Source of the DNA: Candidatus Colwellia aromaticivorans
Lineage (GTDB): Bacteria; Pseudomonadota; Gammaproteobacteria; Enterobacterales; Alteromonadaceae
Length of the DNA: 64,000 nt
Direction: 5' to 3'
Assembly: GCF_003333305.1 (NCBI RefSeq)
Contig: NZ_QOLD01000028.1
Location: 1-64,000 of the forward strand
Part shown: piece after piece, positions 16,979 to 40,208 of the stretch
Numbering within the stretch: the stretch's first letter is position 1
Layout of the letters: each line of letters begins with the position of its first letter
The notes under the pieces: model-generated
Told to the model about the DNA's origin: nothing
The model's input: the letters and a program-made list of their open reading frames with translations, nothing else
The model's database searches: none
Position numbers and translations under genes: made by a program

Positions 16979-17548
16979 ATGTTAGATAAAGCATTGTTTT
17001 TTTTCGCGGATGAATTAAATTCCTATCTTCAGGCTCGTACGGGTTTGCTTGGTACAAAAGTAAAAGTTAGCGCAATTGTTAATGAAGATGGAAAATATGT
17101 GATGGATGCTGAGTCTATTGCTATTACCATTTTAAATATCGAAGAAGAAACTATCATCAAAGATCATCAGCGACAGCATGTTTATCAATCTGGGCAACAT
17201 AAGGTATTAAATCCGAGATTGAATTTAAATCTAATGGTGATGTTTTCGGCCAAATTCGCTGTTTATGATCAAGCGCTTAAATATATAAGTCATGTATTAA
17301 CTTTCTTTCAAAATAACAATAGTTTTTCTTCTAATACTTATCCAGCTCTCGATCAAACAGTAAAGAAATTAAATATTGAATTACAAAGGCTTAGCTTTGA
17401 TGAGTTGAATCAAGTTTGGGCCTTTATCGGCGGTAAACAGCTGCCGTCTGTTATTTATAAAGTTAGGATGATAGCCATACAAGATCAAATACAAAACGAC
17501 ATTCAACAACCCATTACCGTTATTGATTCAACGGTTAATGTGGTTTAA
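16979..17548 (+). CDS. cis16: eCIS tail terminator/cap protein, DUF4255 (Pvc16/Afp16-like)
   Basis: A 189-residue DUF4255 (Pvc16_N) protein, with ALFFFADELNSYLQARTG at the N-terminus and NPRLNLNLMVMFSAKFAVYDQALKYI in the middle. In the Afp and PVC particles this family caps the far end of the sheath-tube and ends its growth. It opens the cluster, 27 bases before the next gene, as in many eCIS loci. ATG is used, without a strong ribosome site. Confidence 0.88.
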   Translation: MLDKALFFFADELNSYLQARTGLLGTKVKVSAIVNEDGKYVMDAESIAITILNIEEETIIKDHQRQHVYQSGQHKVLNPRLNLNLMVMFSAKFAVYDQALKYISHVLTFFQNNNSFSSNTYPALDQTVKKLNIELQRLSFDELNQVWAFIGGKQLPSVIYKVRMIAIQDQIQNDIQQPITVIDSTVNVV

Positions 17549-17575
17549 CTGGCTTTATTTAGTCAAGGAGGCAAA

Positions 17576-18583
17576 ATGTCTGTTCAATTTAAAACCTTAT
17601 TTAGTGTAAAGTTATTACATGAATATTACGCAGACATATTTGCAGATTTAATTCTTGTAGTGCCTGAAGCAACGGCAATAGTTTTAAAAAATGGCAAAAT
17701 ACTCGTTAGAGAGTTGGATGGTGTTTATCATTTTTTGTGTGAATTTCAAGAAAACAACATACCTGTAATCGAACTGTTGAATCAGTCATTACAGTTTGGT
17801 TTAAAATTATCTAATCCATATTTCTTTAATTTTACAGATATTGCACATGACAAAGCTGTGTCACTATACAACAATTCTTCTCTAACATCTTCATTAAACA
17901 TAGCCGCTAGCGTTATACCTACGGGACGTTTTTTAACACATTTCATTAGTCATGAAGATAGGCCTGTAACGCTATCGTTGGAAAGTATAAAGGGTAATGT
18001 TATATCAACAGAAACAATTACAAGTGAACACACAAGAAATCATTGTTCATTTGAGTTTGAAAATGCTTTATTTGGGGCTTATCGAGTTAAAGAGACCTAC
18101 CCAGAGACGAATGAAGTTATAAACTATTATTATCATCAAGAAATTTTCGTTCAACCCATTTTTTCATTAATAGAAATCAAAATTGACAGTAGTTTTTACA
18201 CGTCTCCCCCAGAGTTCACTATTCAATTTGACGCAAAAAAAGAAAAGCTAAATTACTACATTATTGCTGATAAATATTCCCCGACTGATTTTTTGAATTT
18301 ACAGATAACCGATACAGGTTTTGTTAAAGATAGTCGAAGTGAAGTCACATTTGAACGCGTAGAAACTGATAACTTTGGACCCACAGAGTTTAAAGAGAAT
18401 TTACTTGGTAAGCCTGATAGTAAAGTCACGTTATTTAGATCATTAAACAAAGTTAACCGACAACATAAATCAAGAAAAAATATACAGCTCAGTTTAAATG
18501 GGCAAATGCTAATTTCAAATTTGCCCGCACCAGGGCAAGAAAAAACTCAAGCGAATTTCATTATTCATCTTGCTAACCCATAG
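17576..18583 (+). CDS. eCIS-associated protein of unknown fold, possible cap adaptor
   Basis: A 335-residue protein with mixed alpha/beta character, no signal peptide and no transmembrane segment. No family recognised. AAGGAGG lies 5 bases before its ATG, the strongest ribosome site in the cluster. It sits between the terminator and the sheath gene, 11 bases before the latter. In some eCIS types (for example AlgoCIS) a second cap-adaptor protein (Cis16B) accompanies the terminator; by position this could be its equivalent, but that is inference. It could also be a structural decoration or regulator. Confidence 0.7.
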   Translation: MSVQFKTLFSVKLLHEYYADIFADLILVVPEATAIVLKNGKILVRELDGVYHFLCEFQENNIPVIELLNQSLQFGLKLSNPYFFNFTDIAHDKAVSLYNNSSLTSSLNIAASVIPTGRFLTHFISHEDRPVTLSLESIKGNVISTETITSEHTRNHCSFEFENALFGAYRVKETYPETNEVINYYYHQEIFVQPIFSLIEIKIDSSFYTSPPEFTIQFDAKKEKLNYYIIADKYSPTDFLNLQITDTGFVKDSRSEVTFERVETDNFGPTEFKENLLGKPDSKVTLFRSLNKVNRQHKSRKNIQLSLNGQMLISNLPAPGQEKTQANFIIHLANP

Positions 18584-18594: not shown

Positions 18595-20007
18595 ATGTCG
18601 ACATACAAAACGCCAGGTGTATACATAAAAGAGATTTCGACATTTCCGCCTTCAGTGGCAGAAGTGGAGACAGCAGTACCTGCTTTTATAGGCTATACAG
18701 AAAAGGCGGATAAGAACGGCGATGGTTTAACATTAAAACCGACAAAAATATTTTCTTTAAGAGAATACGAGCAATACTTTGGTGGCCCTAAAGATGACGA
18801 AATAGCTTTAACCGTCAGCGAAAAGGATGATGGTAGTTTTAATGTAGAGTCCTTCGTAGAGCCAACATTAAAATATATTATGTATTTTAGTCTGAAAATG
18901 TTTTTTAATAATGGTGGTGGGCAGTGCTACATCATTTCCGTTGGCGACTATACCGGAACGGGAATTGAAATAGGTACTAATACCAAAGTGGGTCTAAAAA
19001 ACGGTCTTGATGCGCTTAAAAATGAAGACGAACCTACCTTGATTGTTATACCAGAATCAATCAAGTTATCGACAACGGCAAGTTATGAAGCGTTAACACA
19101 AGCGGTATTATTGCAATGCAACACCTTGCAAGACCGTTTTGCTGTCTTTGACATTTACAAAGGTGGTGAATTGCTTGACCCTGCTGCCCAATTAGCTAAT
19201 AGAGCCTTTTATGGAAACAATCATCTAAAATATGGCGCAACCTACTATCCATTTTTAAAAACGTCACTTAATTACGCTGTAAATGAAGGCGAAACAAACG
19301 TTAAAATCACTTATCCTTCTGATGCAGAGCCTCCCGCAACCACTAAAACTGACGATCTCAAAACACTTAATGGTGTTAACACTGCTTTATACAATTTTGT
19401 TTTAGGTAAATTGAAAGAACGCTTTGTCGTGCTTCCTGCGTCTCCGGCGGTTGTTGGTGTTTATGCCTCTGTTGACTCTAACAGGGGAGTATGGAAAGCG
19501 CCTGCCAATGTGAGTCTAGCGAATGTAATTGAACCTGTTGTGAAAATAGATAATGCAATTCAAGATGGTCTGAATGTTGATGCAACTACAGGTAAATCTA
19601 TTAATGCAATTCGCTCATTTATGGGCAAAGGTACCCTGGTTTGGGGTGCTAGAACATTAGCGGGTAACGATAATGAATGGCGATACATTCCTGTAAGACG
19701 CTTTTTTAATATGGTTGAGGAGTCTATAAGAAAATCAACTTATTGGGCTGTTTTTGAGCCAAACGACGCCAATACGTGGACTAAAATTCGCGGCATGATT
19801 GAAGCCTATTTGACGCAAAAATGGCGTGACGGTGCCTTAGTAGGAGCAACGCCAGATGATGCATTTTTCGTTCGTTGTGGACTCGGCATAACAATGGACT
19901 CACAAGATATATTAGAAGGCCGTTTGAACGTAGAAATAGGGATGGCTGTTGCAAGGCCTGCAGAATTTATCATTCTTAAATTCTCGCACAAATTACAAAC
20001 GTCGTAA
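18595..20007 (+). CDS. cis2: eCIS contractile tail sheath protein
   Basis: A 470-residue phage tail sheath family protein. The N-terminus YKTPGVYIKEISTFPPSVAEVETAVPAFIGYT is classic for sheath subunits, written here with its hallmark pieces TPGVYIKE and VPAFIGYT. The C-terminal conserved core includes WRYIPVRRFFNMVEESI and the final beta-strands (VEIGMAVARPAEFIILKF). It polymerises around the tube and contracts to drive it outwards. Only one sheath gene is present, unlike Afp/PVC, which have three paralogues. AGGAGA precedes the ATG. Confidence 0.96.
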   Translation: MSTYKTPGVYIKEISTFPPSVAEVETAVPAFIGYTEKADKNGDGLTLKPTKIFSLREYEQYFGGPKDDEIALTVSEKDDGSFNVESFVEPTLKYIMYFSLKMFFNNGGGQCYIISVGDYTGTGIEIGTNTKVGLKNGLDALKNEDEPTLIVIPESIKLSTTASYEALTQAVLLQCNTLQDRFAVFDIYKGGELLDPAAQLANRAFYGNNHLKYGATYYPFLKTSLNYAVNEGETNVKITYPSDAEPPATTKTDDLKTLNGVNTALYNFVLGKLKERFVVLPASPAVVGVYASVDSNRGVWKAPANVSLANVIEPVVKIDNAIQDGLNVDATTGKSINAIRSFMGKGTLVWGARTLAGNDNEWRYIPVRRFFNMVEESIRKSTYWAVFEPNDANTWTKIRGMIEAYLTQKWRDGALVGATPDDAFFVRCGLGITMDSQDILEGRLNVEIGMAVARPAEFIILKFSHKLQTS

Positions 20008-20042: not shown

Positions 20043-20477
20043 ATGCCAGAACTTTATCCATTGCCGGCGTTTCATTTCATCGTGGAATGGGGCGGAATTA
20101 GAGTTGGTTTTTCAGAGGTGTCGGGCTTAACACAAGAAGTACAGCCCATAGAATATCGAGATGGTATGTCGCCAACATTTTCAACAATTAAAATGCCAGG
20201 TCTTAAAAAGTTTTCAAATGTAACATTGAAAAGAGGCATTATTAAACACGACAACGATTTTGCACAATGGTTATCTACGGTGAAGTTAAACAAAGTAGAA
20301 AGGCGCGATATTGTGGTCAGTTTGCTGGATGAAGAACATGTTCCTGTGATGGTTTGGAAAATTAACAGCGCCTTTCCGGTTAAAGTTGAGGGGCCAAGCT
20401 TGAAGGCATCAGGAAATGAGGTAGCAACAGAGTCTATAGAATTGGCGCATGAAGGACTAACCGTTCAAAACGATTAG
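20043..20477 (+). CDS. cis1: eCIS inner tube protein, Cis1-type
   Basis: A 144-residue T4 gp19-like tube protein. Family marks are the N-terminal PAFHFIVEWGG, the GFSEVSGLTQEVQPIEYRDG strand-loop, and LKRGIIKHDNDFAQWL. Stacked hexamers of it form the rigid inner tube through which cargo is loaded. ATG is preceded by CGGAG. A second, divergent tube gene follows after 61 bases. Confidence 0.95.
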   Translation: MPELYPLPAFHFIVEWGGIRVGFSEVSGLTQEVQPIEYRDGMSPTFSTIKMPGLKKFSNVTLKRGIIKHDNDFAQWLSTVKLNKVERRDIVVSLLDEEHVPVMVWKINSAFPVKVEGPSLKASGNEVATESIELAHEGLTVQND

Positions 20478-20538: not shown

Positions 20539-20985
20539 GTGGCAAATTATGTGCCGCCTGTTGGCTTTCATTTCAGAGTAGAAGTATTAGGACTTAGTCC
20601 TAATGATAGTGATATTCGCTTTTCAGATGTAAGTGGTCTGTCTACTGAATTGTCAACGGAAGAAGTTGCTGAGGGGGGAGAAAATAGGTTTCTACAAAAA
20701 TACCCTGTTCAAACAAAGTATACCGATTTAGTGTTAAAACGTGGTCTATTGAAAAGCTCTAAAGTAACTGAATGGATTGAAGAATGTATTCAGCAATTAA
20801 ATATTACCCCAAAAAATATCGATATTATGTTACTTGATGAAGATCATACGCCCCTAATGGCTTGGCATTTAGTTAACGCCTATCCAGTAAAGTGGACAGT
20901 GAGTGATTTTTCTGCAAGAAACAATGCAATTGTGGTTGAAACTCTCCAACTTTATTATCAATATTTTAAAGTGGATAGGGGATAA
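20539..20985 (+). CDS. cis5: eCIS second tube protein, Cis5-type (tube initiator)
   Basis: A 148-residue protein of the same gp19/T4-tube fold as its upstream neighbour: VGFHFRVEVLGL, RFSDVSGLSTELSTEEVAEGG and LKRGLLKSSKVTEWIEE. In Afp/PVC the Cis5 paralogue sits between the hub and the main tube and nucleates tube assembly. The start is GTG with AGAGG five bases upstream; an overlapping ATG at 20537 is in another frame. The GTG start may lower its yield relative to the main tube protein, which fits a low-copy role. Confidence 0.88.
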   Translation: MANYVPPVGFHFRVEVLGLSPNDSDIRFSDVSGLSTELSTEEVAEGGENRFLQKYPVQTKYTDLVLKRGLLKSSKVTEWIEECIQQLNITPKNIDIMLLDEDHTPLMAWHLVNAYPVKWTVSDFSARNNAIVVETLQLYYQYFKVDRG

Positions 20986-20990: not shown

Positions 20991-21146
20991 ATGCCATTAA
21001 TTATTGATGAGGTGGTTATTTCTGTCGAAGTAAATGGCGCTGGAAATAAACCTACACAAAATTTAAATAAAGAAATGACACAAGATCTCATCGAAGAATG
21101 TGTCGAAAAAGTTTTAGAAATATTAAAGGAAAAAGAAGAACGATAA
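20991..21146 (+). CDS. DUF5908-like small eCIS protein
   Basis: A 51-residue frame starting MPLIIDEVVISVEVNG and ending in a charged helix (EECVEKVLEILKEKEER). The N-terminal MPxxIxEVVIxxxV pattern and its position between tube and LysM genes match the small DUF5908 proteins found in eCIS clusters, whose role is unknown. It starts 5 bases after the tube-gene stop and ends 12 bases before the LysM gene. Confidence 0.7.
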   Translation: MPLIIDEVVISVEVNGAGNKPTQNLNKEMTQDLIEECVEKVLEILKEKEER

Positions 21147-21158: not shown

Positions 21159-21824
21159 ATGTCTGGTGAATTAGAAAAGTTGCGTATAGAAGCATATGAA
21201 ACAGAGGATTACCAAGATGACCCGCCTCCTATTGTATTCAACGCTTATATTAATCCTAAAGAAATAACATTGGGATATGAAATTGAATATGACGAAAAAC
21301 AAGGAGCAGGAACAACAAACAGTCGCATGGAGTTTAGTAAAGCAAAGCCAGGCGATTTAGCACTGACGTTTTTCATAGATGGCACAGGCGCAAACGGAAC
21401 AAAAATTGATGTTCAAGCAAAAATCAAAGAACTTCAATTAGTCACGGGGTACAACGGTGTTATTCATCGGTCAAACTATCTGAAAGTGGCGTGGGGAACA
21501 ATGCAAGTGAAACGATGCATACTTAAATCGTTATCTATTGCTTATAAAATGTTTAAGCCAAATGGTGAGCCGTTACGTGCCTTAGTCACAGCAAATTTTA
21601 CAGATAATTCTGATGATGAAACGCGTATTGCGTTAAGTCGGGATAAGTCTCCAGATTTAACACATGTCAGAACGGTTAAGGCAAGTGATACATTAACGCG
21701 AATGTGTTATGAAATTTATGGCGATTCAAAATACTACATCGATATTGCGCGTATAAATCAAATCAGTAATTTCAGAAAACTTGAAACGGGAAAACAACTT
21801 GTCTTTCCGCCATTAGCCAAATAG
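21159..21824 (+). CDS. cis7: eCIS LysM-domain baseplate hub protein, Cis7-type
   Basis: A 221-residue protein with an N-terminal region like Afp7/Pvc7 (PPPIVFNAYINPKEITLGYE, later RMEFSKAKPGDLALTFFIDG) and a C-terminal LysM domain (about residues 168-218, HVRTVKASDTLTRMCYEIYG to GKQLVFPP). The family clamps the hub to the inner baseplate. Length and domain order match Cis7. A 116-base gap follows before the spike gene's apparent start. Confidence 0.92.
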   Translation: MSGELEKLRIEAYETEDYQDDPPPIVFNAYINPKEITLGYEIEYDEKQGAGTTNSRMEFSKAKPGDLALTFFIDGTGANGTKIDVQAKIKELQLVTGYNGVIHRSNYLKVAWGTMQVKRCILKSLSIAYKMFKPNGEPLRALVTANFTDNSDDETRIALSRDKSPDLTHVRTVKASDTLTRMCYEIYGDSKYYIDIARINQISNFRKLETGKQLVFPPLAK

Positions 21825-21940
21825 GAATAGCCATAAAAAAAGCGGTAAAGTACTTTAATTTTAACCTGACGATATTTGTTTGTATTGGTATAAACACGCA
21901 TAAACATGAAATAAAAGCGTGTGTTCAATAGGAGAGAATT

Positions 21941-23686
21941 ATTAACATTCAACGTAGAATACCTGTCGATACCGCGCATCGTGAGTTTATCGTTAAGGTT
22001 AATGGAAGTATTGTTTCACGTAAGCTGAACTTGTTATCAGTTGCCGTGAATTCTGCTGCGAATAAAATTCCTAGTGCTCGACTGGTTTACCAAGACGGCT
22101 CAGCGAATAAGGGAACATTTTCTCTTTCTGAACAAGATTTGTTTATTCCTGGTAATGACATAGAAATTAGCGCTGGCAATGTCAACGAAACTACAGTCGT
22201 TTTTTTAGGTATTGTCGTTAAACACACAATAAAAGTTAAGCAAAATAAAGGTTCAACACTCGTTGTAGAGTGTAAAAATAAAGTCTGTAGATTAGCTGCG
22301 GATAGAACAAATCATTATTTTTATGAACAATCTGATAGTGACATCATTGAGCAACTTCTAGCAAATGCAGCACTGCAGAATATTGAAGTTTCTTCTTCAA
22401 TTATTACCCACCCAGAGATAGTGCAATATAACGCAACAGATTGGGATTTTTGTTTATTACGAGCCCAAGTGAGCGGGCTACTAATCATACTTAATGCCGA
22501 TAAAAGCGAAGTAAGACCTGCAAAAATATCAAATGATGTTATTTGCGAACTTGAATTTGGTGCAACCATTATAGAGGCTGATTTAAGCATAGATGGTCGT
22601 AATCAGTACAGAGGTATTAAATCGTCTAGTTGGAGCCAATCTAGTCAAGAAGTTATTGAAAAAGAGGCGAGTGATCCTCGTTTTACATCTCCCGGTAATT
22701 TAGATGCATCAAGCTTATCTGACACCTTGAACCTCTCATTTTTACAACAAAAACATCCAACGATAAGTGAAGATGAAGCACAGCAATGGGCGGATGCAAG
22801 TTGGCTATATTCGCAAATAAATCGAGTTTCGGGGCTTGTAAAGTGTCAAGGCATGTCTGCAGTAAAAACAGGCGATAGCGTTAAATTAGTTGGTCTAGGA
22901 GAACGCTTTAACGGTGATGCCTTTGTAACAGGTGTACGCCACGACTTTGGAGCGACACAAGGTTGGCAAACCTATCTTCAGTTTGGTGGTGTTGAGTGGT
23001 TAAACGTAACTCAGAAAGTAGTAGACCAACCAAATGCTGCAGGGTTAATTCCAGGCGTTAATGGCTTACAAATTGGCATTGTTGTCAGTAATGATGACCC
23101 TAATGGGGAATGTCGAGTACAAGTGAGAATGCCTTTAATAAGTGCGGACGAAAATGGTACTTGGGCACGGCTTGCTACATTAGATGCTGGCGAAGAACGT
23201 GGTTTTTATTTTTACCCCGAAATAGGAGATGAAGTCGTAATTGGTTTTTTTGCCAATGATCCTAGACAAGCTGTGGTGTTGGGAATGTTGCACAGTAGTG
23301 CGAAAACAGCACCGATAACACCGAATGATGACAACCATGAAAAAGGCTATGTCAGTCGTGAAGAAATGAAAATGACGTTTGATGATGAAAATATTGATAT
23401 GACATTTTCAACACCTGCGGGTAACAACATAAGACTTACCGAACAAGAAGGAGGTATTGTCATTGAAGATCAAAATGGCAGTGTCATTAAATTAATCGAT
23501 AGTGATGTCACCATTGAAAGTGCAGGAAATTTAACATTAAAAGCAGCTCAAGATATTAAAATTGAATCAGGCGTAAATACTGAAATAATGGCATCAAGTG
23601 AAACTAAAATATCGGGAAATGCTGGCTGTGCACTAGAAAGCTCAGGCATCACTGAAGTTAAAGGTTCATTAGTAAAAATTAATTAG
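21941..23686 (+). CDS. cis8: eCIS VgrG/gp27-gp5-like spike protein, Cis8-type, apparent AUU start
   Basis: A spike of about 581 residues: gp27-like hub domains (1-340), a gp5-type OB fold (about 360-450; LQIGIVVSNDDPNGECRVQV and WARLATLDAGEERGFYFYPE) and a C-terminal beta-helix needle with repeated IE/IK strands. The conserved Cis8 N-terminus QRRIPVDTAHREFIVKVNG lies in frame upstream of the first conventional start (TTG at 22031), yet no ATG or GTG exists there. ATT at 21941, with GGAG at 21931-21934 and a 6-base spacer, is the best start. The frame is closed upstream at 21929-21931. A mutated ATG is the alternative. Three copies form the piercing tip under the PAAR cap. Confidence 0.9.
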   Translation: MNIQRRIPVDTAHREFIVKVNGSIVSRKLNLLSVAVNSAANKIPSARLVYQDGSANKGTFSLSEQDLFIPGNDIEISAGNVNETTVVFLGIVVKHTIKVKQNKGSTLVVECKNKVCRLAADRTNHYFYEQSDSDIIEQLLANAALQNIEVSSSIITHPEIVQYNATDWDFCLLRAQVSGLLIILNADKSEVRPAKISNDVICELEFGATIIEADLSIDGRNQYRGIKSSSWSQSSQEVIEKEASDPRFTSPGNLDASSLSDTLNLSFLQQKHPTISEDEAQQWADASWLYSQINRVSGLVKCQGMSAVKTGDSVKLVGLGERFNGDAFVTGVRHDFGATQGWQTYLQFGGVEWLNVTQKVVDQPNAAGLIPGVNGLQIGIVVSNDDPNGECRVQVRMPLISADENGTWARLATLDAGEERGFYFYPEIGDEVVIGFFANDPRQAVVLGMLHSSAKTAPITPNDDNHEKGYVSREEMKMTFDDENIDMTFSTPAGNNIRLTEQEGGIVIEDQNGSVIKLIDSDVTIESAGNLTLKAAQDIKIESGVNTEIMASSETKISGNAGCALESSGITEVKGSLVKIN

Positions 23687-23761: not shown

Positions 23762-24040
23762 ATGGCGTTTGCAGCACGGGTTGGAGATACAACAAATCAT
23801 GGTGGAACCGTAATTGGGCCCGGTAACGCTACGGTACTTATTGGAGGAAAACCAGCAGCCGTATTAGGAGATATACATATTTGCAGCTTGCCGCCGAATG
23901 GACATCAACCAACGGCGAGTCCTTTTATTTTAGGAAGCCCTTCAGTGCTAATTGGAAATATGCCAGCAGTAAGAACATCTGACAGCTGTATTTGCGGTGC
24001 AATGCCAGTTGTAGGTGAACCAACGGTAATCATTGGTTAA
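23762..24040 (+). CDS. cis10: eCIS PAAR-repeat spike tip, Cis10-type
   Basis: A 92-residue PAAR protein: AARVGDTTNHGGTVIGPG at the N-terminus, then repeated VLIGGKPAAVLGD and VLIGNMPAVRTSD units, with His/Cys residues (THGG, HICS, SCICG) positioned to bind the metal at the cone tip. It caps the spike trimer. Size and position right after the spike gene are as in Afp10/Pvc10. No toxin extension is fused. Confidence 0.94.
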   Translation: MAFAARVGDTTNHGGTVIGPGNATVLIGGKPAAVLGDIHICSLPPNGHQPTASPFILGSPSVLIGNMPAVRTSDSCICGAMPVVGEPTVIIG

Positions 24041-24540: not shown

Positions 24541-24594
24541 ATGTTGAAGGTTAAGGCGAAAAAACTCGTTAAAGTCATCAATAAAGTCGATTAA
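24541..24594 (+). CDS. 17-codon leader-like frame coupled to baseplate J
   Basis: A minimal frame, MLKVKAKKLVKVINKVD, preceded by an AAAAGGAAAAG ribosome site. Its TAA shares its last base with the ATG of the baseplate J gene (TAATG), which lacks its own Shine-Dalgarno sequence. This layout suggests translational coupling by ribosome restart. The peptide is basic and resembles no family. It could instead be the relic of a longer gene. Confidence 0.45.
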   Translation: MLKVKAKKLVKVINKVD

Positions 24595-30510: not shown

Positions 30511-30534
30511 CAATGAATATTCAAGGTGATCGTT

Positions 30535-33339
30535 ATGGCAATTATTTTAAGTAGTCTCGCAAAATTAGCGAATGATTATACGGTCTTTAATAAAGACCAA
30601 GTACTGTCGGATGAACAGCTCAATAGTTTATCCAAATATTTTGATGATCAAGACCGATTAACACGCGTTAATTTAATTGGTGTTGGTTTGGTTTGTGGTT
30701 GTAATATTGAAATGCAGGGCAATTCAATTGTCATGAGTAAAGGCTTAGCGATCACAACAGATGGCGACCTTATTAATATAGAAAAAGCGACATCATATTC
30801 AGCATTTAAACCCTTTGGTATAGATCAACCCAAGTACAATCGCTTCTATATTAATAAAACTAAAATGCTCACCTTGTTTGAACTTGTGCAAAATGAAGTG
30901 GGAGACAGCTTAACAAAGCCAATAAAAAACTTTTCAACAAGTTCAGGCTTTCAACTAAGTGATATGGTTGCGCTTCTGTTTCAGCAAACCTATATCAAAG
31001 ATCATGATTTATGCACAGGTACTGATTGTGACAACCACAGCCAAAACTACATTACTAAAACTAAAGTTCTACTGGTACCACAATCAGAAGTTAAACTTTT
31101 AGCACCAAAAATACAAACAGCACACAATGTGGCTAAGCTTTTTCCCCGCATTGATATGCCAAGAGTTATTTTTAATAAAAGTCGATCTACCGTTAAAAAA
31201 GTAATAGCAGAGTATAAAAAGCAAAATAATTTAGCCATTAATCAATTAGGTAAAACTTTACCATTATTATGGAAACATGCTGGGTTTTTAATGTCGACTT
31301 CAATGCGGTCAGATTTAAGTAGTTCTTGGATACAGACAATGAAAAGTATTAACCAAAGCTTTTCAAATACCGATGGCAATGTTCAGTATTTTTATAGTTT
31401 TCTACAAGATCTTTGTGAAGTTTGGAATGAATTAAAAGAAGTAATGTTGTCTGATAAGTCGTTATGCAGCCCAGCGACGAACGCGTTTGAAAAACATATT
31501 TTGCTAGGACAAATTTTAGGCATAAGAAATTCAAGAATAACGCCAAATATAAATTTGGGCACAAGAGACACGATAAGATTAGATACAGGTATTGATCTTA
31601 ATCCATTTGATTTAGATAATTTTATTATTGAACGTTCTAGCCTTGCTAAATCTGTTATTCGCCATGGATTTTATCCATCTGGTGCACAGCAACAAGATTC
31701 TCAACGAGCTAGAATTCAATTCTTAATTCATAAACTTAATGCGTTAATTAGTGAGTTTACTGTCCCTAAAACCGGAGATATTAAAATCACCCCAAGTTTG
31801 TGCAGAACGCATCCTCAATCTAAACGAGCAATACCTTGGTACTTTAGGCTTTCTGTTAATTCTCGTACATTAAAATTTTGGAACTTTTCAACTTACCAAA
31901 CGAACGATTTACCTTCCTTAAGCTCATACCATAGTGATGAAACAGGTGCTAAAGGTGCTGCTGCACAGCCACTTGCTTTTAATATAGAAGATAAAGATTT
32001 CTTTCGAATAGAAGGGCATATAGGTAAGAAAGCGACAGAAGTTCAGGCAGAATTAGAAAAAACACGTTTGGAATTTAATTTACCATTTTCTATTGTATCT
32101 ATTCTTTTAGATAAAGATTCTAGGCGGCTAATCGGTAAGACAGGTACGGGCTATAGTGATTTACATCGTTTGCATGCGCTTTATCGAAAAGATCTCGTGT
32201 TTCGATTAGACGAAGTTAAAGACTTTAGTTTAGGTTTTAAAAACAAACTATTTACCTCTGTCGACAATGGTGATGTTACCGATGATGATTGTAACGACAG
32301 TATTGGGGTAAAAACATTAGCGACTAGTCGGATGGCTGATGTTGAAGTGGGTGTTAAAGAAGTAAAAGTAGGCCTAGATTTAGGTTATCAAGCGTATAAG
32401 AAAAATACTGCGTGGATTGGAAGTTTTAATCAGTTGATGACTAAATCAACCCAATTTAAATCTGACTTTGGTAAAGTCGCTAAAACAGAATTCTCGACAC
32501 CGGTAGACGGTTTAATTGTCGATTCAAAACCACGATGGTTACCTTGGTTAGATGTGATTATTAAAGACAAAGACGATAAAGCGGATACAAAAAAAATGTT
32601 CGAAACCTTTGTTAATAATCACCCTGGACTTGAATCGACAGGAGGTGTTAGAAGAGGGGGAACGTTTGTCATCGTTTATGACGATAAAGGTCACGTCGTT
32701 AGTGATTTAAGTTTATCAAAATGTATTGAAGAAAAAATAGAAGTTGAATCTGAACCTGTATTACCACGTCCAATTACAGGGCCGTTCATTAATAACGGAA
32801 TTAATATTTATAAAAGTCCTAGAAATTTTGTTAATGGAAAAATCAATGACTTTTCCAGTCGGTTTACGGAAGAAATTCAGTCAAAATTCAATGTTGGGAC
32901 AGCATATGCGAGTGCAATGCGAGATTCAATCAATGTGTTATCAACATCATTTATCCGACCCGATTTAGGCGTTCTTGCGCCCGGCAATGTTATTGGTACT
33001 GGTCCGAATATCCTATTACCAGGCTTGGTAAAAGATCGAGAAATTTTGATTAGTAAAACAAGAGAACTTGAATTGTTAAAACTAAGTGAAGTATCTGCTA
33101 GTCCAGCTGAAAAACAAAGATTAGCCCCCGAAATTAAGAAAGTAGAAGACGAAATGTCTGCAGACATGAAAGCTATTTTAATTAAGATTTCGACTGCAGA
33201 TAACACTATATCATCCACGGATATCGCAGAAGCATTAAATACAGTTGAATTGAGTAATAAGACTGTCGGTGCAGCTACTAAATTGAATGATAGCGAGTTA
33301 ACGTCAGCAAGAAAAATAGTAGATGCCAGATTCACTTAA
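30535..33339 (+). CDS. Large eCIS structural protein of unknown role (possible fibre or baseplate accessory)
   Basis: A 934-residue protein. Its N-terminus (YTVFNKDQVLSDEQLNSLSK, then LTRVNLIGVGLVCGC) resembles the opening domain of large proteins found after Cis12 in many eCIS loci, where it precedes variable C-terminal parts. The last 170 residues are helical and coil-like. No carbohydrate-binding or adenovirus-fibre-like repeat is obvious, and no other fibre gene exists in the cluster, so this is the best candidate for a peripheral baseplate or receptor-binding part. ATG at 30535 with AAGGTGA upstream is preferred over a GTG nine bases earlier. Confidence 0.7.
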   Translation: MAIILSSLAKLANDYTVFNKDQVLSDEQLNSLSKYFDDQDRLTRVNLIGVGLVCGCNIEMQGNSIVMSKGLAITTDGDLINIEKATSYSAFKPFGIDQPKYNRFYINKTKMLTLFELVQNEVGDSLTKPIKNFSTSSGFQLSDMVALLFQQTYIKDHDLCTGTDCDNHSQNYITKTKVLLVPQSEVKLLAPKIQTAHNVAKLFPRIDMPRVIFNKSRSTVKKVIAEYKKQNNLAINQLGKTLPLLWKHAGFLMSTSMRSDLSSSWIQTMKSINQSFSNTDGNVQYFYSFLQDLCEVWNELKEVMLSDKSLCSPATNAFEKHILLGQILGIRNSRITPNINLGTRDTIRLDTGIDLNPFDLDNFIIERSSLAKSVIRHGFYPSGAQQQDSQRARIQFLIHKLNALISEFTVPKTGDIKITPSLCRTHPQSKRAIPWYFRLSVNSRTLKFWNFSTYQTNDLPSLSSYHSDETGAKGAAAQPLAFNIEDKDFFRIEGHIGKKATEVQAELEKTRLEFNLPFSIVSILLDKDSRRLIGKTGTGYSDLHRLHALYRKDLVFRLDEVKDFSLGFKNKLFTSVDNGDVTDDDCNDSIGVKTLATSRMADVEVGVKEVKVGLDLGYQAYKKNTAWIGSFNQLMTKSTQFKSDFGKVAKTEFSTPVDGLIVDSKPRWLPWLDVIIKDKDDKADTKKMFETFVNNHPGLESTGGVRRGGTFVIVYDDKGHVVSDLSLSKCIEEKIEVESEPVLPRPITGPFINNGINIYKSPRNFVNGKINDFSSRFTEEIQSKFNVGTAYASAMRDSINVLSTSFIRPDLGVLAPGNVIGTGPNILLPGLVKDREILISKTRELELLKLSEVSASPAEKQRLAPEIKKVEDEMSADMKAILIKISTADNTISSTDIAEALNTVELSNKTVGAATKLNDSELTSARKIVDARFT

Positions 33340-33436
33340 CAAGGTAGGTTTATTTCAGCTGTTAATTATTCATATAAAAGCTTAAAAATGGAAGCTTATA
33401 CCCGGCAGCTTAGAAAGGTACTTTAATAATTTTTAA

Positions 33437-33646
33437 CATGGCTATGTAGATAACTCAGGAGCCAGTAAAAATAGATTTAAAACGTCATTCCAGCGGTGTT
33501 TTAGGCTGACGTGGCATGGATGCCACTTATTAGACTATGCATGAAGCACATCGTCCTGAATCCAAACCAAAAACAACTGGATCCTCGATAAGATGCTTCG
33601 AGGATGACGACTATCAGTAAACTCCTGAGCCAAGTACATAAGCACT
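33437..33646. repeat. IS1595-related MITE, copy B, inside the eCIS gene set
   Basis: A 210-bp element with ends catggctatgtagataactc and the complement of gagccaagtacataagcact, matching the IS1595 ends. Perfect 8-bp duplications atttttaa flank it (33429-33436 and 33647-33654). It contains a diverged two-hairpin module (33511-33559) whose second stem has changed to gtggca/tgccac but still pairs. It separates the structural genes from the tape-measure/ATPase/cargo genes and leaves only about 12 bases of native leader before the tape-measure gene. Confidence 0.85.
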
Positions 33647-33666: not shown

Positions 33667-35256
33667 ATGCAAAATCATCATTTGAGTAAATTGATTATCA
33701 CAACGACAACGGCCTCCGAATCGGAAGGTTTTGCATTAAGACGTCTACTCAAAGAAAATTGGCAACAACTACTGCCTGATTTAACAGAGTCTTTTGATGA
33801 ATTTTGTGCTGATGATGAAGTTATTCATTTACCAAAAATAGCCATATCGCTTGAAGTAGATTCAATGCATTCTCTAGTGTCAGATATGCCCATCACAGAC
33901 AACGAATACTTAAAAGACCAAATTAAAACACAAGTAATGCAACAGGTTCAGGAATTTAAAGCGGCATATAATGGCAGGCAGAATGAAACTGTTTTTTATG
34001 GTGAATGTTTTGATAATAATAGTAATGTTAATAATGAACATATAGAGAGGCTTAAAAATCAGACAAACACAAATAAAATGAGTAATGGCTTGTTAACTTG
34101 GCAAGATGTTAAATCTTATTTAAATAACGGGCAATTACCTTGGCATATTATGCAAGAAGAGTCTGTAAAAAATTTGGTGAAGAGAGATAATTCTCAATCG
34201 CTACATTCATCAATACAATCGTTAATAAAACAGAATATTAATGCCTGTATTACTGGTTTATATGAAGAGCATTCACCACAAACTATCAATAGGTTGGTTC
34301 AGTTGTGTGATGATATTTTACGTAAAAGTATTTTTGATTATTTAGTAGATCACGCTTTATCCAAATCTAATCTATTGAAGAATGAAGAAGTCGGCGAAGC
34401 GCGACAAAATAGTCAAGCATTGGTCTCTATTTGTGAAGAGATAATCAATAAATCCACTAATCCAATTGATTTAACAAGCGCGTTGTTTACTAGCTTACTA
34501 AGTGGCAACTCTGAAACAAACACCGTAAATAGTATAATTATTCAAGACTCTATTTTAGAAACTTTAATACCCAAAGCAGCCAAACAGTTTAATACCTCTG
34601 AAAATGTGCTGTCTACGTTATCGTCAGCAATCCTACCTAAATCTAACGATTATAAAAGTGCAAAAATTCACCGGACAAATCAAGGTATAACTCAAGTCCT
34701 AAAAACCGACAAGGTTAAAGCGTTAGAGAACTCTTCAGACGATGATTTATTTAAAAATGCTACACAGGTTCTATTTGCCGGTAGTATTATATTGTATCCC
34801 TATTTAACCATATTTTTTAAAGACTTAGATTATTTATCTGAAGATAAAACGATTAAAAATAACAAACAAAATAGTGCTGTGACATTGATGGTTTATTTGT
34901 TAACGGGCAAAGAACAGGCTTTTGATTATCAATTGCATTTCATTAAATGGCTACTGGGTATTCCAATTGGTGCATTAATATCTATTGAAGAAAACTCATT
35001 GACTGAAAATGAAAAAGCATTGGCAGATACTGTATTGCTATCGCTTAAATCACATTGGTCAGTATTGAAAAATACGTCAATTAGCACTATTCGAGAATCA
35101 TTTTTACAACGGTCAGGCATGATGAAGCTCGATGACGAGCAATGTCATTTACATATCGAGCGTAAAGGCATTGATGTATTAATTGACCAAATTCCATTTT
35201 CACTTTCAATAATTAGGCTGGCATGGATAAAGCAACCGATAATCGTCACTTGGTAG
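33667..35256 (+). CDS. cis14: eCIS tape measure protein, Cis14-type
   Basis: A 529-residue protein of the contractile injection system tape-measure family. The C-terminal signature is clear: FLQRSGMMKLDDEQCHLHIE, then IDVLIDQIPFSLSIIRLAW and the final IVTW, matching the family pattern (F..R.G.l......l..e....DvLld.lPw.......pWm..p..v.W). The N-terminal L.K.II...T..SE.EGFALRRLL segment also fits. Tape measure length sets particle length; 529 residues is modest. Asn-rich patches occur in the middle. It overlaps the ATPase gene by 34 bases in another frame. Confidence 0.85.
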   Translation: MQNHHLSKLIITTTTASESEGFALRRLLKENWQQLLPDLTESFDEFCADDEVIHLPKIAISLEVDSMHSLVSDMPITDNEYLKDQIKTQVMQQVQEFKAAYNGRQNETVFYGECFDNNSNVNNEHIERLKNQTNTNKMSNGLLTWQDVKSYLNNGQLPWHIMQEESVKNLVKRDNSQSLHSSIQSLIKQNINACITGLYEEHSPQTINRLVQLCDDILRKSIFDYLVDHALSKSNLLKNEEVGEARQNSQALVSICEEIINKSTNPIDLTSALFTSLLSGNSETNTVNSIIIQDSILETLIPKAAKQFNTSENVLSTLSSAILPKSNDYKSAKIHRTNQGITQVLKTDKVKALENSSDDDLFKNATQVLFAGSIILYPYLTIFFKDLDYLSEDKTIKNNKQNSAVTLMVYLLTGKEQAFDYQLHFIKWLLGIPIGALISIEENSLTENEKALADTVLLSLKSHWSVLKNTSISTIRESFLQRSGMMKLDDEQCHLHIERKGIDVLIDQIPFSLSIIRLAWIKQPIIVTW

Positions 35257-36605
35257 GTAGTATTTTTAATAATGCTGCTGAGTTACAAGCAGAAATAAAT
35301 TGGTTTATTCAATTTGTTGATGTACGAATGCGTATCTATTTTTCATCTGATCCGCAAAACAAAAAAACAGGTGATATTCCAGTTAAGGCGCCGAAGTTAA
35401 CTAAAGGTAAGTCGAGTTATGCTTTGATGATTAATCGTTTAGGACTATCTGATGAAGAACGTTTAATTTTAATACTTGCCTTAGTACCTTTTATAAAGCC
35501 GGAGTTGTTTGATATTTTTCTTACAAAAAACAACCTTATTGAAAGCGGATATACCGAATTTGGAGGGCTTCAAGCACAGGGACACAATGGTTTTTTACCG
35601 ACAATAGAAACGGCATTGTTTATTTTATCAGGGCAAGAATTAGAAAAACGGTTTGAATTAATGGCTTTATTTGAAAATGATGGCCTTTTGTTTACCAGTG
35701 GATTAATGACATTACATTTACAAAATGCCAATGAACCTTGGACGACAAGCTTATTACAAGTAAATCGCGAGACATTAAATCAACTAACCATAGGTAATGA
35801 CTTTCAACCTGATTTCAATAGTAACTTCCCAGCAAGGCTAATCACTACTTCGTTAACGTGGGATGATTTAATTTTACCTTTACATGTGAAAAATCAGTTG
35901 GATGAGGTTGTCGCGTGGTCTAAATACGGCAAAGTATTGCTTGACGAGTGGGGGATGTCAGGGAAAATATCATCAGGTTTTACGGGCTTGTTTTATGGAC
36001 CGTCAGGAACAGGTAAAACACTTGCGGCAACTCTGCTAGCAGGGCATTGTGATAAAACATGTTACAAAATTGACCTGAGTATGATCGTCTCAAAATACAT
36101 AGGAGAGACAGAAAAAAATCTTTCTCGAATATTTGATTCTGCAGAAAATAGAAATTGGATGTTGTTTTTTGATGAAGCGGATGCCTTATTTGGTAAAAGG
36201 ACTACCGTAAGTGACGCTCACGACAGGTATGCAAATCAAGAAGTTAGTTACTTGTTACAACGCATTGAAACTTACTCTGGCATTGTTATATTAGCTTCAA
36301 ATTTTAAAAGCAATATCGACGAAGCATTTTTAAGACGCTTCCAAGCGGTAATCGAGTTTTCAATACCTTCAGTAAAAGAACGTTATGACATTTGGAAAAA
36401 GGCAGTGTCTAGTAAAGCAATATTAGCGGATGATATTGATCTAATGGAAATCTCAGAAAAATATGAAATTACCGGTGGTACCATCGTAAATATCGTTCGT
36501 TTTGCTTCGTTAAAAGCACTGTCAAATGATCGTAATACTATTTTTTTGGAGGATCTTGTTGAAGGTGTACGTCGTGAGTTTTCTAAACTTGGGCGTCATT
36601 TGTAA
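35223..36605 (+). CDS. cis15: eCIS AAA+ ATPase, Cis15-type
   Basis: A 460-residue AAA+ ATPase with an N-terminal helical domain (1-200) followed by the ATPase core: Walker A GPSGTGKT at about 259-266, Walker B MLFFDEADALFG at about 312-323, sensor-1 ILASNFKSN and arginine-finger region DEAFLRRF. Afp15/Pvc15 ATPases help cargo loading or particle assembly in the cytoplasm. It overlaps the tape-measure gene and precedes the cargo candidate by 54 bases, a usual place for it. Confidence 0.94.
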   Translation: MDKATDNRHLVGSIFNNAAELQAEINWFIQFVDVRMRIYFSSDPQNKKTGDIPVKAPKLTKGKSSYALMINRLGLSDEERLILILALVPFIKPELFDIFLTKNNLIESGYTEFGGLQAQGHNGFLPTIETALFILSGQELEKRFELMALFENDGLLFTSGLMTLHLQNANEPWTTSLLQVNRETLNQLTIGNDFQPDFNSNFPARLITTSLTWDDLILPLHVKNQLDEVVAWSKYGKVLLDEWGMSGKISSGFTGLFYGPSGTGKTLAATLLAGHCDKTCYKIDLSMIVSKYIGETEKNLSRIFDSAENRNWMLFFDEADALFGKRTTVSDAHDRYANQEVSYLLQRIETYSGIVILASNFKSNIDEAFLRRFQAVIEFSIPSVKERYDIWKKAVSSKAILADDIDLMEISEKYEITGGTIVNIVRFASLKALSNDRNTIFLEDLVEGVRREFSKLGRHL

Positions 36606-36659: not shown

Positions 36660-39600
36660 ATGTCTAAGAATGTTGTTAGGAAACAAAAGACAATTACCAA
36701 ATCACAGCAGCCATCTACAGCCAATGTATTTCGCTCAGCTGCTGTCAGAATCAACTCGCCTACCAAAGTACAAACAGCTAAAACATCTTCACCAAACGAC
36801 TCTGAAGAAAAAGAGGCAGACAGCACGGCACAAAAAGTGATGCGAATGTCGGCGCCATACGCAAACGTAAGTTTAAATCACTCCTTAACTGCAGATATTC
36901 ACAAGCAAGAATTGAAAAATGAAGCGAGGCAGGATGAAACACCGACTATAAAAAGAAAGTCGCTACCGCCATCAATTGCGTGTTTTAAAAGTTATGCGTT
37001 ATTAAGAAAAGACAGCTTAAGAACAGAGAGTGTAGGTGAAGCTGACAATGAAAAAGAAAACGATGCAAGCTCAATCACTAGAAAGGAATTAAATCGAGAA
37101 AAAGAAACAGAAGAAAAAGATATTCTAAAAAGATCGTCTGACAAAGAAGGTAAAAGCAAAGAAGAAGATGTTGTCGCGAGACAATCGTCGGAATCAAGTG
37201 ATGGTTCTTCAGAAATAAAAAACGATACGATGAGTAACATCAACGCAAGTATGTCGGGTGGCCAACCATTACCCTCAGACGTTCGTCATTTTATGGAACC
37301 ACGATTTAAAGCCGACTTTAGCAAAGTAAGAATACATACCGATACAAATTCTGCCAATTTAAATCGTCAAGTTAATGCTAAAGCCTTTGCCATTAAGAAT
37401 CATGTGTTTTTCGGTAAAGATCAATTTAAGCCTGATTCAGATGATGGTAAAGAACTGATTGCACATGAATTAACACATACTATTCAGCAAGGTGGTGCAA
37501 TTCAACGCAAAAGTAATGTAGAAATAAAAGGACGAGCAGAGCCGTCAGTACAACGGTTAGGCATTAGTAGTGCCCGAAATTACTTTGCTAAAAAAGCCAA
37601 ACACATAATGGGCTTTACATTATTAACATTGATCTTAAAAAGAAATCCTATCAATGGGAAAACGGTTAATCGAACTCCCACTAATATGTTAAAAGCAGCG
37701 ATTGAACTTATGCCCGGTGGTGGCTTTATAACTGAAGCATTACAAAGTCACGGATTACTGTCAAAAATAGCAAACTGGGTAGTAAAACAAGTGAGTGGCT
37801 TAGTATCAATATATGAATCGATAAAACAAAGTATTAAAGACTTTTTAAATAGTTTAGGTGTTACAGATATTGCAAGGCCGGGCAATGTATGGCGAAGGGC
37901 GAAGAAACTTGTGACTGATCCTATCGCTAGAGTCAAAGCTTTTATAAGAGCTTTAGTCGCAGGTATTATCAGAATTGTTAAAGCCGCTATTTTAAATCCG
38001 GTTTCCAAAGTATTGTCTAAAATAAAAGGTTGGTCACTATTAACAGCTGTCCTTGGGAAGAATCCTGTTACAGGTAAAAGTGTCATTGGTACGGCTGACA
38101 TACTCATTGGTGGATTTATGAAATTCATCGGTCAGCAAGCAGTATGGGAAAACTTGAAAAAGGCTAAAGCCGTTCCACGCGCATGGACATGGTTCAAAGG
38201 CACATTGTCTGGTGTTGTACGTTTCGTTACGCTCATTCCAGTAACCTTCTTTAAAGTACTATCGTCACTTGAATTTAAAGATATATTGAATATTCCTGCA
38301 GTTATCAAACGAGTCATTGGTGTATTTGGTCGCTTCGCTATTAACTTCATTATGTGGGCGGGTAAGCAAGTAAAAGAACTATTGCTAATTATTATTTCTA
38401 CCGTTGCTCCGGGGATTATGCCATTTCTGAAAAAAGCAGGTAAGTCATTTCTGTCTATTGTAAAAAATCCAATTAGATTTTTAATGAATCTTATTAAAGC
38501 AGGTAAAAGAGGTTTTTGGCTTTTTGCAAAAAACTTTGTCAAACATTTAAGTAGTTCCTTAATACAATGGCTTACTGGCGCGATGTCAGGTGCGAATATT
38601 TATATTCCTAAAGCATTTAACTTAAAAGAAATTGTTAAATTTATCCTAAGTGTTTTAGGTATTACTTGGGAAAACATAAAAACAAAATTAGTAAAACGTG
38701 TTGGGCCTGCCGCCGTGTCTGCAATGGAAAAAGGATTTGAATTAGTACACACATTAATTAAAGAAGGACCGGGTGCTTTATGGCAAAAAATCGTCGAAAG
38801 CGTTGGCAATCTTAAAGAATCAATTATGGCGCAAATTCAACGCTACATTAAAACCAAGGTTGTACAAGTTGCTATTGGAAAAATTGCGTCACTGTTGACG
38901 CCTGCAGGCGCTTTTATACAAGCCATATTGGCTATTTACAATACGATTATGTTTTTGATTAAACGCTTAAAAGCTATTATTCTGGTTGTGCGTTCGTTTG
39001 TAAACTCTATTGCATCTATTGCTATTGGTAAAATCAAACCAGCGGCCAAACGCATTGAAAATACAATGGCGGGTATGTTGACGTTAGTGATAAGTTTTCT
39101 CGCTCGATTTGCTGGGTTAGGCGATGTTGCTGATAAAGTGAAAGAAATTATTGAAAGTATACGGAAACCCATAGAAGCAACAATGGAAAAACTTGCCGAT
39201 TGGGTGGTAGATAAGGCAAGAAAACTAGGGCGTTTTGTTGCTCAAAAAGGTGTGCCGAAAGATGCAAACACAAGGCTTAAACTCGGTATGAAACATGCTC
39301 AAAAAATAGCGGGGAAATTGCCAACCAACTCGTTAAGTGAAAATGTAATTTTGTTAGCATTAAAAGCAATAAAAATACGATATGGTTTTCAGCAGCTTAA
39401 AGCCTATAAAAAAGAGGGAGTATGGTGGATTGAAGGAAAAATAAATCCGAGTTTAGCGGTAATGGTGACTAATATGCCGAATAAGGTAAATATAGCGTCA
39501 CCTTCTGGAGAAATATTAATAACCAATTACTCGAGAAAAAGCCGAAAAGGCACATTTGAGCGAGCAATATTCTCAGGGCAATCAACACTTGCCCAGCTGC

Positions 39601-40208
39601 ATTATACGTCAACAACTTCAGGCGAGAAGAAAGATGATTTAGGTGCAAATAAAGTGAATTTAAATTACACCATCGCTGCGGCTAACGACTTATATGGTGC
39701 GCCATCAAAATTTAAAGCGCTCGACAGAAAAGAGCCAGATGAAGATGAAAAATACGCTAAACGTCGATCTGCTTTTCCTAAAAATATGCAAAGTTGGTGG
39801 ACCGATCAACCCCTTAGAGATGCACCTAGAATTCAAACTTTAAAAGACAAGGGGTTACTTGATACAGACGACAGTCTTACTAGGGGAGCATATAAGTGGA
39901 AGTACATTCATTCAAAATTAGATGACAAATATAAAGTTAATTTTAATGAGACTGTTAATAAAGAAAATATGATTAGGCTAATTAATTCAATTAAAGACAA
40001 GTCTATTAAAGATGAACTGGAACAAAAATGGAAAGAAAGATGGGGTAAAAGTACACATATCCATCACATTACACCAATAAATTTTAATGGGCGAAATAGT
40101 TTGAAAAATTTCATCCCATTAAAAGCTGAGAAACACGTTGGTAGTGATGGTGTTCATCCTCAATTTTGGGTACCGTTAAAAAAATTCTTAATGAACATAC
40201 GTAAGTGA
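36660..40208 (+). CDS. eCIS cargo candidate: DUF4157 protein with C-terminal HNH-like nuclease
   Basis: An 1182-residue protein. Residues 1-190 are disordered and rich in Lys, Glu and Ser, with EKEADSTAQKVMRM at about 50-63, the segment that commonly precedes eCIS-associated domains. DUF4157 (about 203-280) ends with the zinc-protease-like HELTH at 269-273. The long middle is lysine- and aliphatic-rich, helical and partly repeated (LLTLILKRNPINGKT versus LLTAVLGKNPVTGKS). The last 60 residues contain IHHITPINFNGRNSLKNFIP and a later His, a HNH/LHH-type nuclease pattern. It is probably a toxin loaded in the tube. No immunity-like gene follows. Confidence 0.82.
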   Translation: MSKNVVRKQKTITKSQQPSTANVFRSAAVRINSPTKVQTAKTSSPNDSEEKEADSTAQKVMRMSAPYANVSLNHSLTADIHKQELKNEARQDETPTIKRKSLPPSIACFKSYALLRKDSLRTESVGEADNEKENDASSITRKELNREKETEEKDILKRSSDKEGKSKEEDVVARQSSESSDGSSEIKNDTMSNINASMSGGQPLPSDVRHFMEPRFKADFSKVRIHTDTNSANLNRQVNAKAFAIKNHVFFGKDQFKPDSDDGKELIAHELTHTIQQGGAIQRKSNVEIKGRAEPSVQRLGISSARNYFAKKAKHIMGFTLLTLILKRNPINGKTVNRTPTNMLKAAIELMPGGGFITEALQSHGLLSKIANWVVKQVSGLVSIYESIKQSIKDFLNSLGVTDIARPGNVWRRAKKLVTDPIARVKAFIRALVAGIIRIVKAAILNPVSKVLSKIKGWSLLTAVLGKNPVTGKSVIGTADILIGGFMKFIGQQAVWENLKKAKAVPRAWTWFKGTLSGVVRFVTLIPVTFFKVLSSLEFKDILNIPAVIKRVIGVFGRFAINFIMWAGKQVKELLLIIISTVAPGIMPFLKKAGKSFLSIVKNPIRFLMNLIKAGKRGFWLFAKNFVKHLSSSLIQWLTGAMSGANIYIPKAFNLKEIVKFILSVLGITWENIKTKLVKRVGPAAVSAMEKGFELVHTLIKEGPGALWQKIVESVGNLKESIMAQIQRYIKTKVVQVAIGKIASLLTPAGAFIQAILAIYNTIMFLIKRLKAIILVVRSFVNSIASIAIGKIKPAAKRIENTMAGMLTLVISFLARFAGLGDVADKVKEIIESIRKPIEATMEKLADWVVDKARKLGRFVAQKGVPKDANTRLKLGMKHAQKIAGKLPTNSLSENVILLALKAIKIRYGFQQLKAYKKEGVWWIEGKINPSLAVMVTNMPNKVNIASPSGEILITNYSRKSRKGTFERAIFSGQSTLAQLHYTSTTSGEKKDDLGANKVNLNYTIAAANDLYGAPSKFKALDRKEPDEDEKYAKRRSAFPKNMQSWWTDQPLRDAPRIQTLKDKGLLDTDDSLTRGAYKWKYIHSKLDDKYKVNFNETVNKENMIRLINSIKDKSIKDELEQKWKERWGKSTHIHHITPINFNGRNSLKNFIPLKAEKHVGSDGVHPQFWVPLKKFLMNIRK

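Follow-up and report, generated by a model that had tools for sequence, protein, structure and literature searches.

The closest described relatives of the system reported here are AlgoCIS of Algoriphagus machipongonensis and the thylakoid contractile injection system (tCIS) of Anabaena PCC 7120. The baseplate protein of AlgoCIS, Alg11, carries a spike-cage domain (residues 278-643; PMC8894135); its fibre mediates binding to bacteria, and the C268-C1000 disulfide of Alg11 is essential for firing on cells (PMC13314943). In Anabaena, Cis13 (All3316, with a transmembrane helix) and an extension of Cis12 (residues 610-1100) fix the particles in thylakoids, and deleting the Cis13 helix freed them (PMC8894136). 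Tme, a cargo of Streptomyces davawensis, is an effector with a C-terminal nuclease, and its authors already name Tme-like effectors a family (PMC11126660); a class related to these has also been described (PMC13277306). Here we describe a cluster at positions 16979-40208 of a 64,000-nucleotide stretch of Candidatus Colwellia aromaticivorans DNA (the window), which is the start of the 143-kb contig NZ_QOLD01000028.1 (assembly GCF_003333305.1). Judged by its sequence, the cluster is a genuine single-sheath contractile injection system (CIS) of the AlgoCIS/tCIS group, complete in genes, from which a working particle is plausible. We consider it probable, if well short of certain, that it is a complete, horizontally acquired extracellular CIS (eCIS) of AlgoCIS type that delivers one Tme-like effector and is released free; the type, clade Ib, is marked by a cap adaptor, a plug, a spike cage and a downward fibre. 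In this proposal the parts, their order and homology, the island that holds them, and a cargo trunk with exchanged tails rest on sequence or fold.

The cluster consists of 16 genes, all on the + strand, with every frame open and zero internal stops:

16979-17548, + strand: cap (tail terminator), single domain, Alg16A type; 189 aa (Pvc16_N PF14065, E 7.3e-31)
17576-18583, + strand: cap adaptor, Alg16B/Cis16B type; 335 aa (fold match)
18595-20007, + strand: contractile sheath; 470 aa (Phage_sheath_1C PF17482, E 3.2e-15)
20043-20477, + strand: inner tube protein 1 (Phage_T4_gp19, E 7e-48)
20539-20985, + strand: inner tube protein 2 or tube initiator, GTG start (Phage_T4_gp19, E 1e-45)
20991-21146, + strand: plug, Alg6/DUF5908; 51 aa (PF19265, E 5.6e-14; Asl3322, E 2.5e-4; Alg6, E 4.9e-4)
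21159-21824, + strand: tube initiator or hub with suggested LysM, Alg7 type (CIS_tube PF19266, E 6.5e-44)
21941-23686, + strand: VgrG-like spike, Alg8 type, inferred ATT start (Phage_base_V, E 3.9e-26)
23762-24040, + strand: PAAR spike tip, Alg10 type (PF05488, E 2.6e-20)
24089-24514, + strand: gp25-like sheath initiator, Alg9 type (PF04965, E 8.7e-18)
24594-27764, + strand: baseplate protein Cis11 (baseplate J) with putative spike-cage region; 1056 aa (Alg11 match)
27814-30510, + strand: baseplate protein Cis12; 898 aa (Alg12 match)
30526-33339, + strand: tail fibre, Alg19/Cis19 family; 937 aa, start may be ATG 30535
33667-35256, + strand: tape measure (length control), CIS_TMP (PF19268, E 7e-70)
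35223-36605, + strand: AAA+ ATPase, Pvc15 type by position (PF00004, E 3.8e-26)
36660-40208, + strand: cargo, eCIS_core/DUF4157 (PF13699, E 1.5e-30; HELTH at 269)

A preliminary description of this DNA had proposed an eCIS-type cluster in a gammaproteobacterium, and the evidence supports it: the co-directional gene classes that it listed are all present, in that order, and Pfam and PDB matches fit eCIS parts. Sheath, tube, spike, gp25, baseplate J, terminator, AAA+ ATPase and CIS_TMP genes in one direction, the set that marks an eCIS gene cluster, all occur here. Two of the Pfam matches are weak and below cut-off, namely, those of the sheath to PF04984 (E 2e-5) and of Cis11 to baseplate J (E 8e-4). 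Against solved structures, the sheath matches those of AlgoCIS (E 8e-141), Anabaena (All3325, E 5e-139) and PVC (Pvc3, E 8.5e-68), while Cis11 matches Alg11 (1050 aa) at E 5e-125 in two collinear stretches. The alignment spans Alg11 residues 278-489 and 548-643, within the cage domain, and argues that the spike-cage extension is present in Cis11. Cis12 aligns with residues 2-893 of Alg12 (933 aa; E 1.7e-135). For the hub at 21159-21824, an endolysin-family match at residues 160-219 and the layout of Alg7 (PMC8894135) suggest a LysM domain. The preliminary description had also stressed one sheath instead of three; a PF04984 search found a single sheath in the entire assembly (25.9 bits versus a cut-off of 31.4), although this is no peculiarity, as AlgoCIS also has one (PMC8894135).

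Two genes that had been left unidentified can now be named. The product of 17576-18583 has no Pfam match and a phmmer match to SalCis16b at E 0.003, but its AlphaFold model (pLDDT 88, built from 7 aligned rows) has as its two top Foldseek matches 7b5i_AB, from the cap complex of Anabaena (E 1.5e-16, query TM-score 0.59), and 7adz_1A, a chain of AlgoCIS (E 9.9e-11, query TM-score 0.42), each at 13% identity; from its length of 284, the latter chain would be Alg16B. The TM-scores are moderate, and both matches rank above an Ig-like background that begins at E 8e-5. On the modelled fold, then, we assign 17576-18583 as the cap adaptor. The second gene, 30526-33339, overturns the statement that there is no dedicated fibre gene: its product is homologous to the AlgoCIS fibre (9wt0_a, E 3.3e-56) and to All3314 of Anabaena (7b5h_AA, E 4e-32). 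Residues 10-331, 376-530 and 690-768 are collinear with Alg19 residues 4-333, 339-489 and 769-849; there is no match past Alg19 residue 849, the window fibre is ∼500 residues shorter, and the C-terminal Ig-rich part is absent. A short fibre is common in the sheath clade to which the window belongs: six of its clusters (those of G090, a genome of the same family; Pseudanabaena; Nostoc; two Variovorax; and a Bacteroidia metagenome-assembled genome [MAG]) have whole fibre frames of 890-1002 aa, counted stop to stop and so upper limits. Frames outside the clade reach 1159-1589 aa. No relatives of the fibre were found in viral contigs.

Homology of the fibre to Cis19 (All3314) of tCIS also fits a membrane-anchored machine, like tCIS or the subtype iv type VI secretion system (T6SSiv), that fires from within the producer or its ghost. 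A spike cage is present in T6SSiv too (PMC8894135), the sole complete 16-gene match on one contig is cyanobacterial (Nostoc), and Cis11 and Cis12 have one hydrophobic segment each (Kyte-Doolittle [KD] values of 1.79 and 2.02). However, the Cis11-Cis12 gap, where an All3316-type anchor is expected by gene number (PMC8894136), is only 49 bp and no ORF fits in it (no sequence search for Cis13 was made); Cis12 is 437 aa shorter than All3315 (1335 aa) and does not show the tCIS extension; its hydrophobic segment falls within the stretch that also aligns with the nonanchored Alg12; and no segment of the fibre exceeds KD 1.6. We regard an anchored machine as unlikely and, because the membrane anchors of tCIS were not seen, favour a free particle.

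A five-sheath alignment used to scan genome contigs found at least 578 relatives, and the best 80 of these were kept. In the resulting 85-row tree, the phylogeny that places the lineage, the window sheath falls in an 8-row clade (support 100/99) with those of Nostoc and Pseudanabaena (Cyanobacteriota), two Variovorax (Pseudomonadota), two Bacteroidota MAGs and a Geobacteraceae MAG (Thermodesulfobacteriota); the clade thus spans four phyla, and Algoriphagus sheaths fall outside it. When seven proteins were joined, G090, from a different genus of the same family, was sister to the window (97/99). Nostoc foliaceum has 16 of 16 genes in window order on a single contig; Variovorax, Pseudanabaena (where the genes are split over two contig ends) and G090 have 15 of 16, with PAAR not found. 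The sheath frames of Pseudanabaena (L114, 9989-11896) and Nostoc (L120, 9989-12100), of 636 and 704 aa, contain an apparent in-frame insert in the variable region, without counterpart in the window sheath, and Algoriphagus marincola (L160, 4026-7216) has two tandem sheath-like frames.

The machine, of a known kind, is rare within the genus: PF19268 scores above cut-off in 1 of 39 genus genomes (2 if matches of E up to 0.001 are counted) and 38 of 395 family genomes, and a spike query matches 36 of the 395, the window's genome being the sole one of its genus. We propose that the cluster was acquired horizontally, as part of an island missing at this site in a sister genome, G016, whose helicase gene is the most similar in the genus (84%). 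The island and its features are as follows:

16303-16413, + strand: tyrosine-integrase relic, an Arm-DNA-binding domain and then a stop (PF13356, E 1.5e-7)
16431-42401, no strand: island of ∼26 kb, missing at this site in G016 (blastn synteny of G016 with 14372-16430 and 42402-45362)
33434-33645, no strand: miniature inverted-repeat transposable element (MITE) with IS1595-like ends, 212 bp, between fibre and tape measure
40283-40799, − strand: ParE-like toxin and ribbon-helix-helix antitoxin pair, right part of the island (PF05016, E 5e-9; PF20605, E 4e-6)
40964-42121, − strand: ATPase_2 family protein, right end of the island (PF01637, E 2.3e-9)

G016 is syntenic up to 16430, apart from an IS1595 element, and resumes at 42402; the island's place is taken there by 3.8 kb that include a HipBA-type pair, and the tyrosine-integrase piece at the left junction is kept in both genomes. 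The IS1595-type element (13385-14379), which has 31-nt inverted ends, is not at this place in G016. Codon usage gave no clear sign of transfer: island and flank genes largely overlap in codon distance and GC3. Nor could we assign an RfaH/ops element, since the pattern had 5 near-matches versus a chance expectation of 3.1 and none ahead of the operon.

A prophage tail module or an R-type tailocin would account for the matches of sheath, spike and gp25 to phage tail families. Against this, a search of 50,697 phage records with the tape measure gave no match at E 1e-3, and eCIS-type cap, plug, CIS_TMP, AAA+ and eCIS_core proteins are present. Capsid or terminase genes close by, which the preliminary description had considered damaging to its proposal, were found in none of the 13 ORFs scanned with Pfam among 27 flank ORFs of ≥120 aa, and both flanks have syntenic counterparts in G016, which lacks the cluster. 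The phage search, the flank scan and the synteny lead us to reject a phage origin, to which we give almost no weight.

The cargo, the one DUF4157 protein in the entire assembly, consists of DUF4157, a conserved helical trunk to residue ∼850, and an exchanged C-terminus, with six hydrophobic peaks above KD 1.6; this layout, by which alone we liken it to Tme, is a Tme-like architecture. A cargo match was found in 11 of 13 genomes searched. Over trunk residues 201-850, identity per 50-residue bin ranges from 28 to 70% for Pseudanabaena, Nostoc, Nitrospira and two Variovorax, and from 4 to 52% for a Bacteroidia MAG, Ignavibacteriales and Algoriphagus; it drops to 13-33% in the 851 bin and is low thereafter, except in the 901 bin of Nitrospira (36%) and Nostoc (32%, over 31 residues). 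The G090 cargo alone matches that of the window through to the end (42.7% over residues 117-1181). Among eight relative tails scanned with Pfam, two have firm names (Ntox15, E 1.5e-22, and Endonuclea_NS_2, E 2.6e-8); one of the other six has a weak deaminase match (SsdA_C, E 0.0084), two have weak unrelated matches (DUF603, E 0.0017, and Mtd_N, E 0.079), and three have none. Those exchanged ends that can be named look like DNA-attacking enzymes.

The window tail is probably a nuclease as well, a putative one of the HNH type (PF01844). Two homologues of it occur among the 395 family genomes, namely, the tail of the G090 cargo and, in G016, a relic of 70 residues; the HH, N and H residues are invariant in all three tails, and a three-row profile of them finds Cas8f-HNH weakly (E 0.004). 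No relatives of the tail were found in plasmids, phages or viral contigs; 92 plasmid records match the cargo, none covering 80% of the protein. In G016 (L164, 19669-19894), a relic of a cargo 3' end covers 202 bp at 87.6% nucleotide identity; it lies ∼68 kb away from the helicase gene that, in the window, borders the island. Two IMG/VR "viral" contigs (L176 and L177) have matches to the eCIS ATPase and cargo and are probably bacterial eCIS clusters binned as virus; another IMG/VR contig (L178, 2-10592) has three successive open frames, each matching the cargo.

Tme acts in producer physiology (PMC11126660), and a cargo resembling it might do the same here, in an intracellular CIS like that of Streptomyces whose nuclease hits the producer or its kin (programmed death or DNA release). 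That no immunity gene was seen next to the cargo, where no aimed search was made, agrees with such a role; the fibre gene does not, being present and conserved in the clade when a purely internal system would not need one. Self-directed action is, in our judgment, improbable.

The spike gene has no canonical start where one is expected. Its first ATG, GTG or TTG is at 22031, downstream of the conserved N-terminus; the frame has a TAG at 21929 and then no canonical start until 22031. Of two in-frame ATT codons (21938 and 21941), the second is in register with the start of relatives and lies just 3' of a Shine-Dalgarno-like AGGAGAG at 21930, and ten relatives have ATG at the exact codon matching ATT 21941. 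Among 124 distinct spike relatives (leaving out alignments that begin after residue 35 or are weaker than 1e-30, frames of <350 aa, frames running off the locus, and repeated copies), there are 121 in which the stretch from the upstream stop to the first aligned residue contains a canonical start. The other three are L041 (Geobacteraceae) and L166 (G090), both in the window's clade and both with ATT at the window's position plus a Shine-Dalgarno sequence, and L219, a distant sequence without ATT at that place. An ATT start is not clade-wide, because other members (L042, L045, L114 and L120) have ATG. The spikes of the window and G090 are 39% identical; therefore, the ATT has been either long kept or gained repeatedly. 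Translation of the spike appears to start at ATT ∼21941 rather than at 22031.

infC uses an AUU start under control of initiation factor 3, and the spike hub is needed in just three copies per particle. We suggest tentatively, at somewhat less than even confidence, that a retained AUU start sets spike-hub translation and so caps or gates particle number, possibly via initiation factor 3 as in infC. A search of the papers available found none joining an AUU start codon with contractile systems or a noncanonical start codon with contractile injection. Should the AUU start prove genuine, the start codon of one low-copy part would be the point at which assembly of an injection machine is controlled.

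The same ATT in place of ATG might instead belong to a decaying cluster that no longer makes particles, as might the MITE between fibre and tape measure and the 202-bp cargo-end relic in G016. Contig C6 holds a copy of the MITE at 99% identity, and 46 matches occur in the genome, including the MITE itself and fragments; the MITE ends resemble the arms of the IS1595 element at 13385-14379. But all 16 frames are open, the MITE interrupts none of them, and the ATT is common to two distant relatives and is therefore no fresh lesion, so that decay has, in our view, only a slim chance of being right. The 327-bp gap between fibre and tape measure was also considered as the site of a hidden gene; we do not favour one, as 212 bp of it is the MITE and the G090 frames overlap there, although Nostoc has a 286-bp gap at this position, which counts against rejecting it.

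For a complete, acquired eCIS that is released free, we infer as follows how the particle assembles, takes up its cargo and leaves lysed producers, that the cargo is a nuclease with DNA as its target, and which cells are hit. Sixteen proteins would build a sheath-tube syringe, into whose tube the AAA+ protein and the DUF4157 domain may load one large Tme-like effector. Lysis of some producers would release the particles (no lysis gene was recognised among the annotated island ORFs, and no search aimed at lysis genes was made). Short Alg19-type fibres and the spike cage would then bind a target, upon which the particle would contract, and the hydrophobic helical trunk might give the C-terminal HNH domain access to target DNA, which this domain would cleave. 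Bacteria are somewhat favoured as the target by analogy, because AlgoCIS binds bacteria.

Several observations weigh against this scheme. The only cysteines of Cis11 are at residues 406, 778, 793 and 878, and the C268-C1000 disulfide of Alg11 has no counterpart; we take that disulfide to be a trait of AlgoCIS itself, which need not define the clade. No cargo match was found in the genomes of L041 (Geobacteraceae) and L042 (Bacteroidota), the closest by sheath identity. The HNH match of the cargo tail is below cut-off (E 0.005-0.008; 17.3 bits versus 21.4), and the full-length cargo model is poor (pLDDT 46) and was left unused for fold search. No immunity gene was recognised, there having been no search aimed at such genes. 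The noncanonical spike start and the recent MITE that splits the operon are further caveats.

The cluster adds a well-preserved AlgoCIS-type machine to a genus whose other sampled members lack one. The spread of a tight sheath clade over four phyla speaks strongly for transfer of such machines as whole cassettes, and short fibres, together with a conserved trunk with exchanged ends, offer a clean comparison set for cargo loading and delivery.

Elsewhere in the window, the product of 46701-48536 joins a methyltransferase domain to an HNH_4 domain (PF13395, E 1.3e-7) and is possibly a defence protein (PADLOC mad2, 6e-13; weak Cas9 matches). Dispersed repeats at 1152-1518, 12498-12653, 53253-53520, 56930-57085 and 63248-63375 are shared within the window, some also with related genomes.

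Among known systems, AlgoCIS (PDB 7adz/7aeb/7aef/9wt0) shares with the window one sheath, cap and cap adaptor, plug, cage-bearing Cis11, Cis12 and an Alg19-type fibre, with sheath, Cis11 and Cis12 all matching at E below 1e-120. It differs in having a fibre of 1443 aa versus 937, with the Ig-rich end that the window fibre lacks, a sheath of 692 aa versus 470 in another clade, and the C268/C1000 disulfide. The tCIS of Anabaena (PDB 7b5h/7b5i) has the same cap adaptor fold and homologous sheath, plug, Cis11, Cis12 and Cis19, whereas the window has a much shorter Cis12, no Cis13 anchor seen (by gene position, no sequence search having been made) and a host that is not a cyanobacterium. The clade clusters (Nostoc foliaceum, Pseudanabaena sp. 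lw0831, Variovorax, the two Bacteroidota MAGs, the Geobacteraceae MAG and G090) have a near-identical gene order, and the cargo trunk is conserved where cargo was found; all cargo tails except that of G090 differ from the window's, and the cyanobacterial sheaths carry the insert. Afp and PVC follow the same overall eCIS gene logic with three sheaths and a two-domain Pvc16 in place of one sheath, and their sheath match is weaker. The Tme effector, likened by architecture alone, combines DUF4157, a hydrophobic trunk and a C-terminal nuclease (PMC11126660), as the window cargo appears to do, but its C-terminus is EndA-like versus HNH-like in the window, and its gene position and CIS lineage differ.

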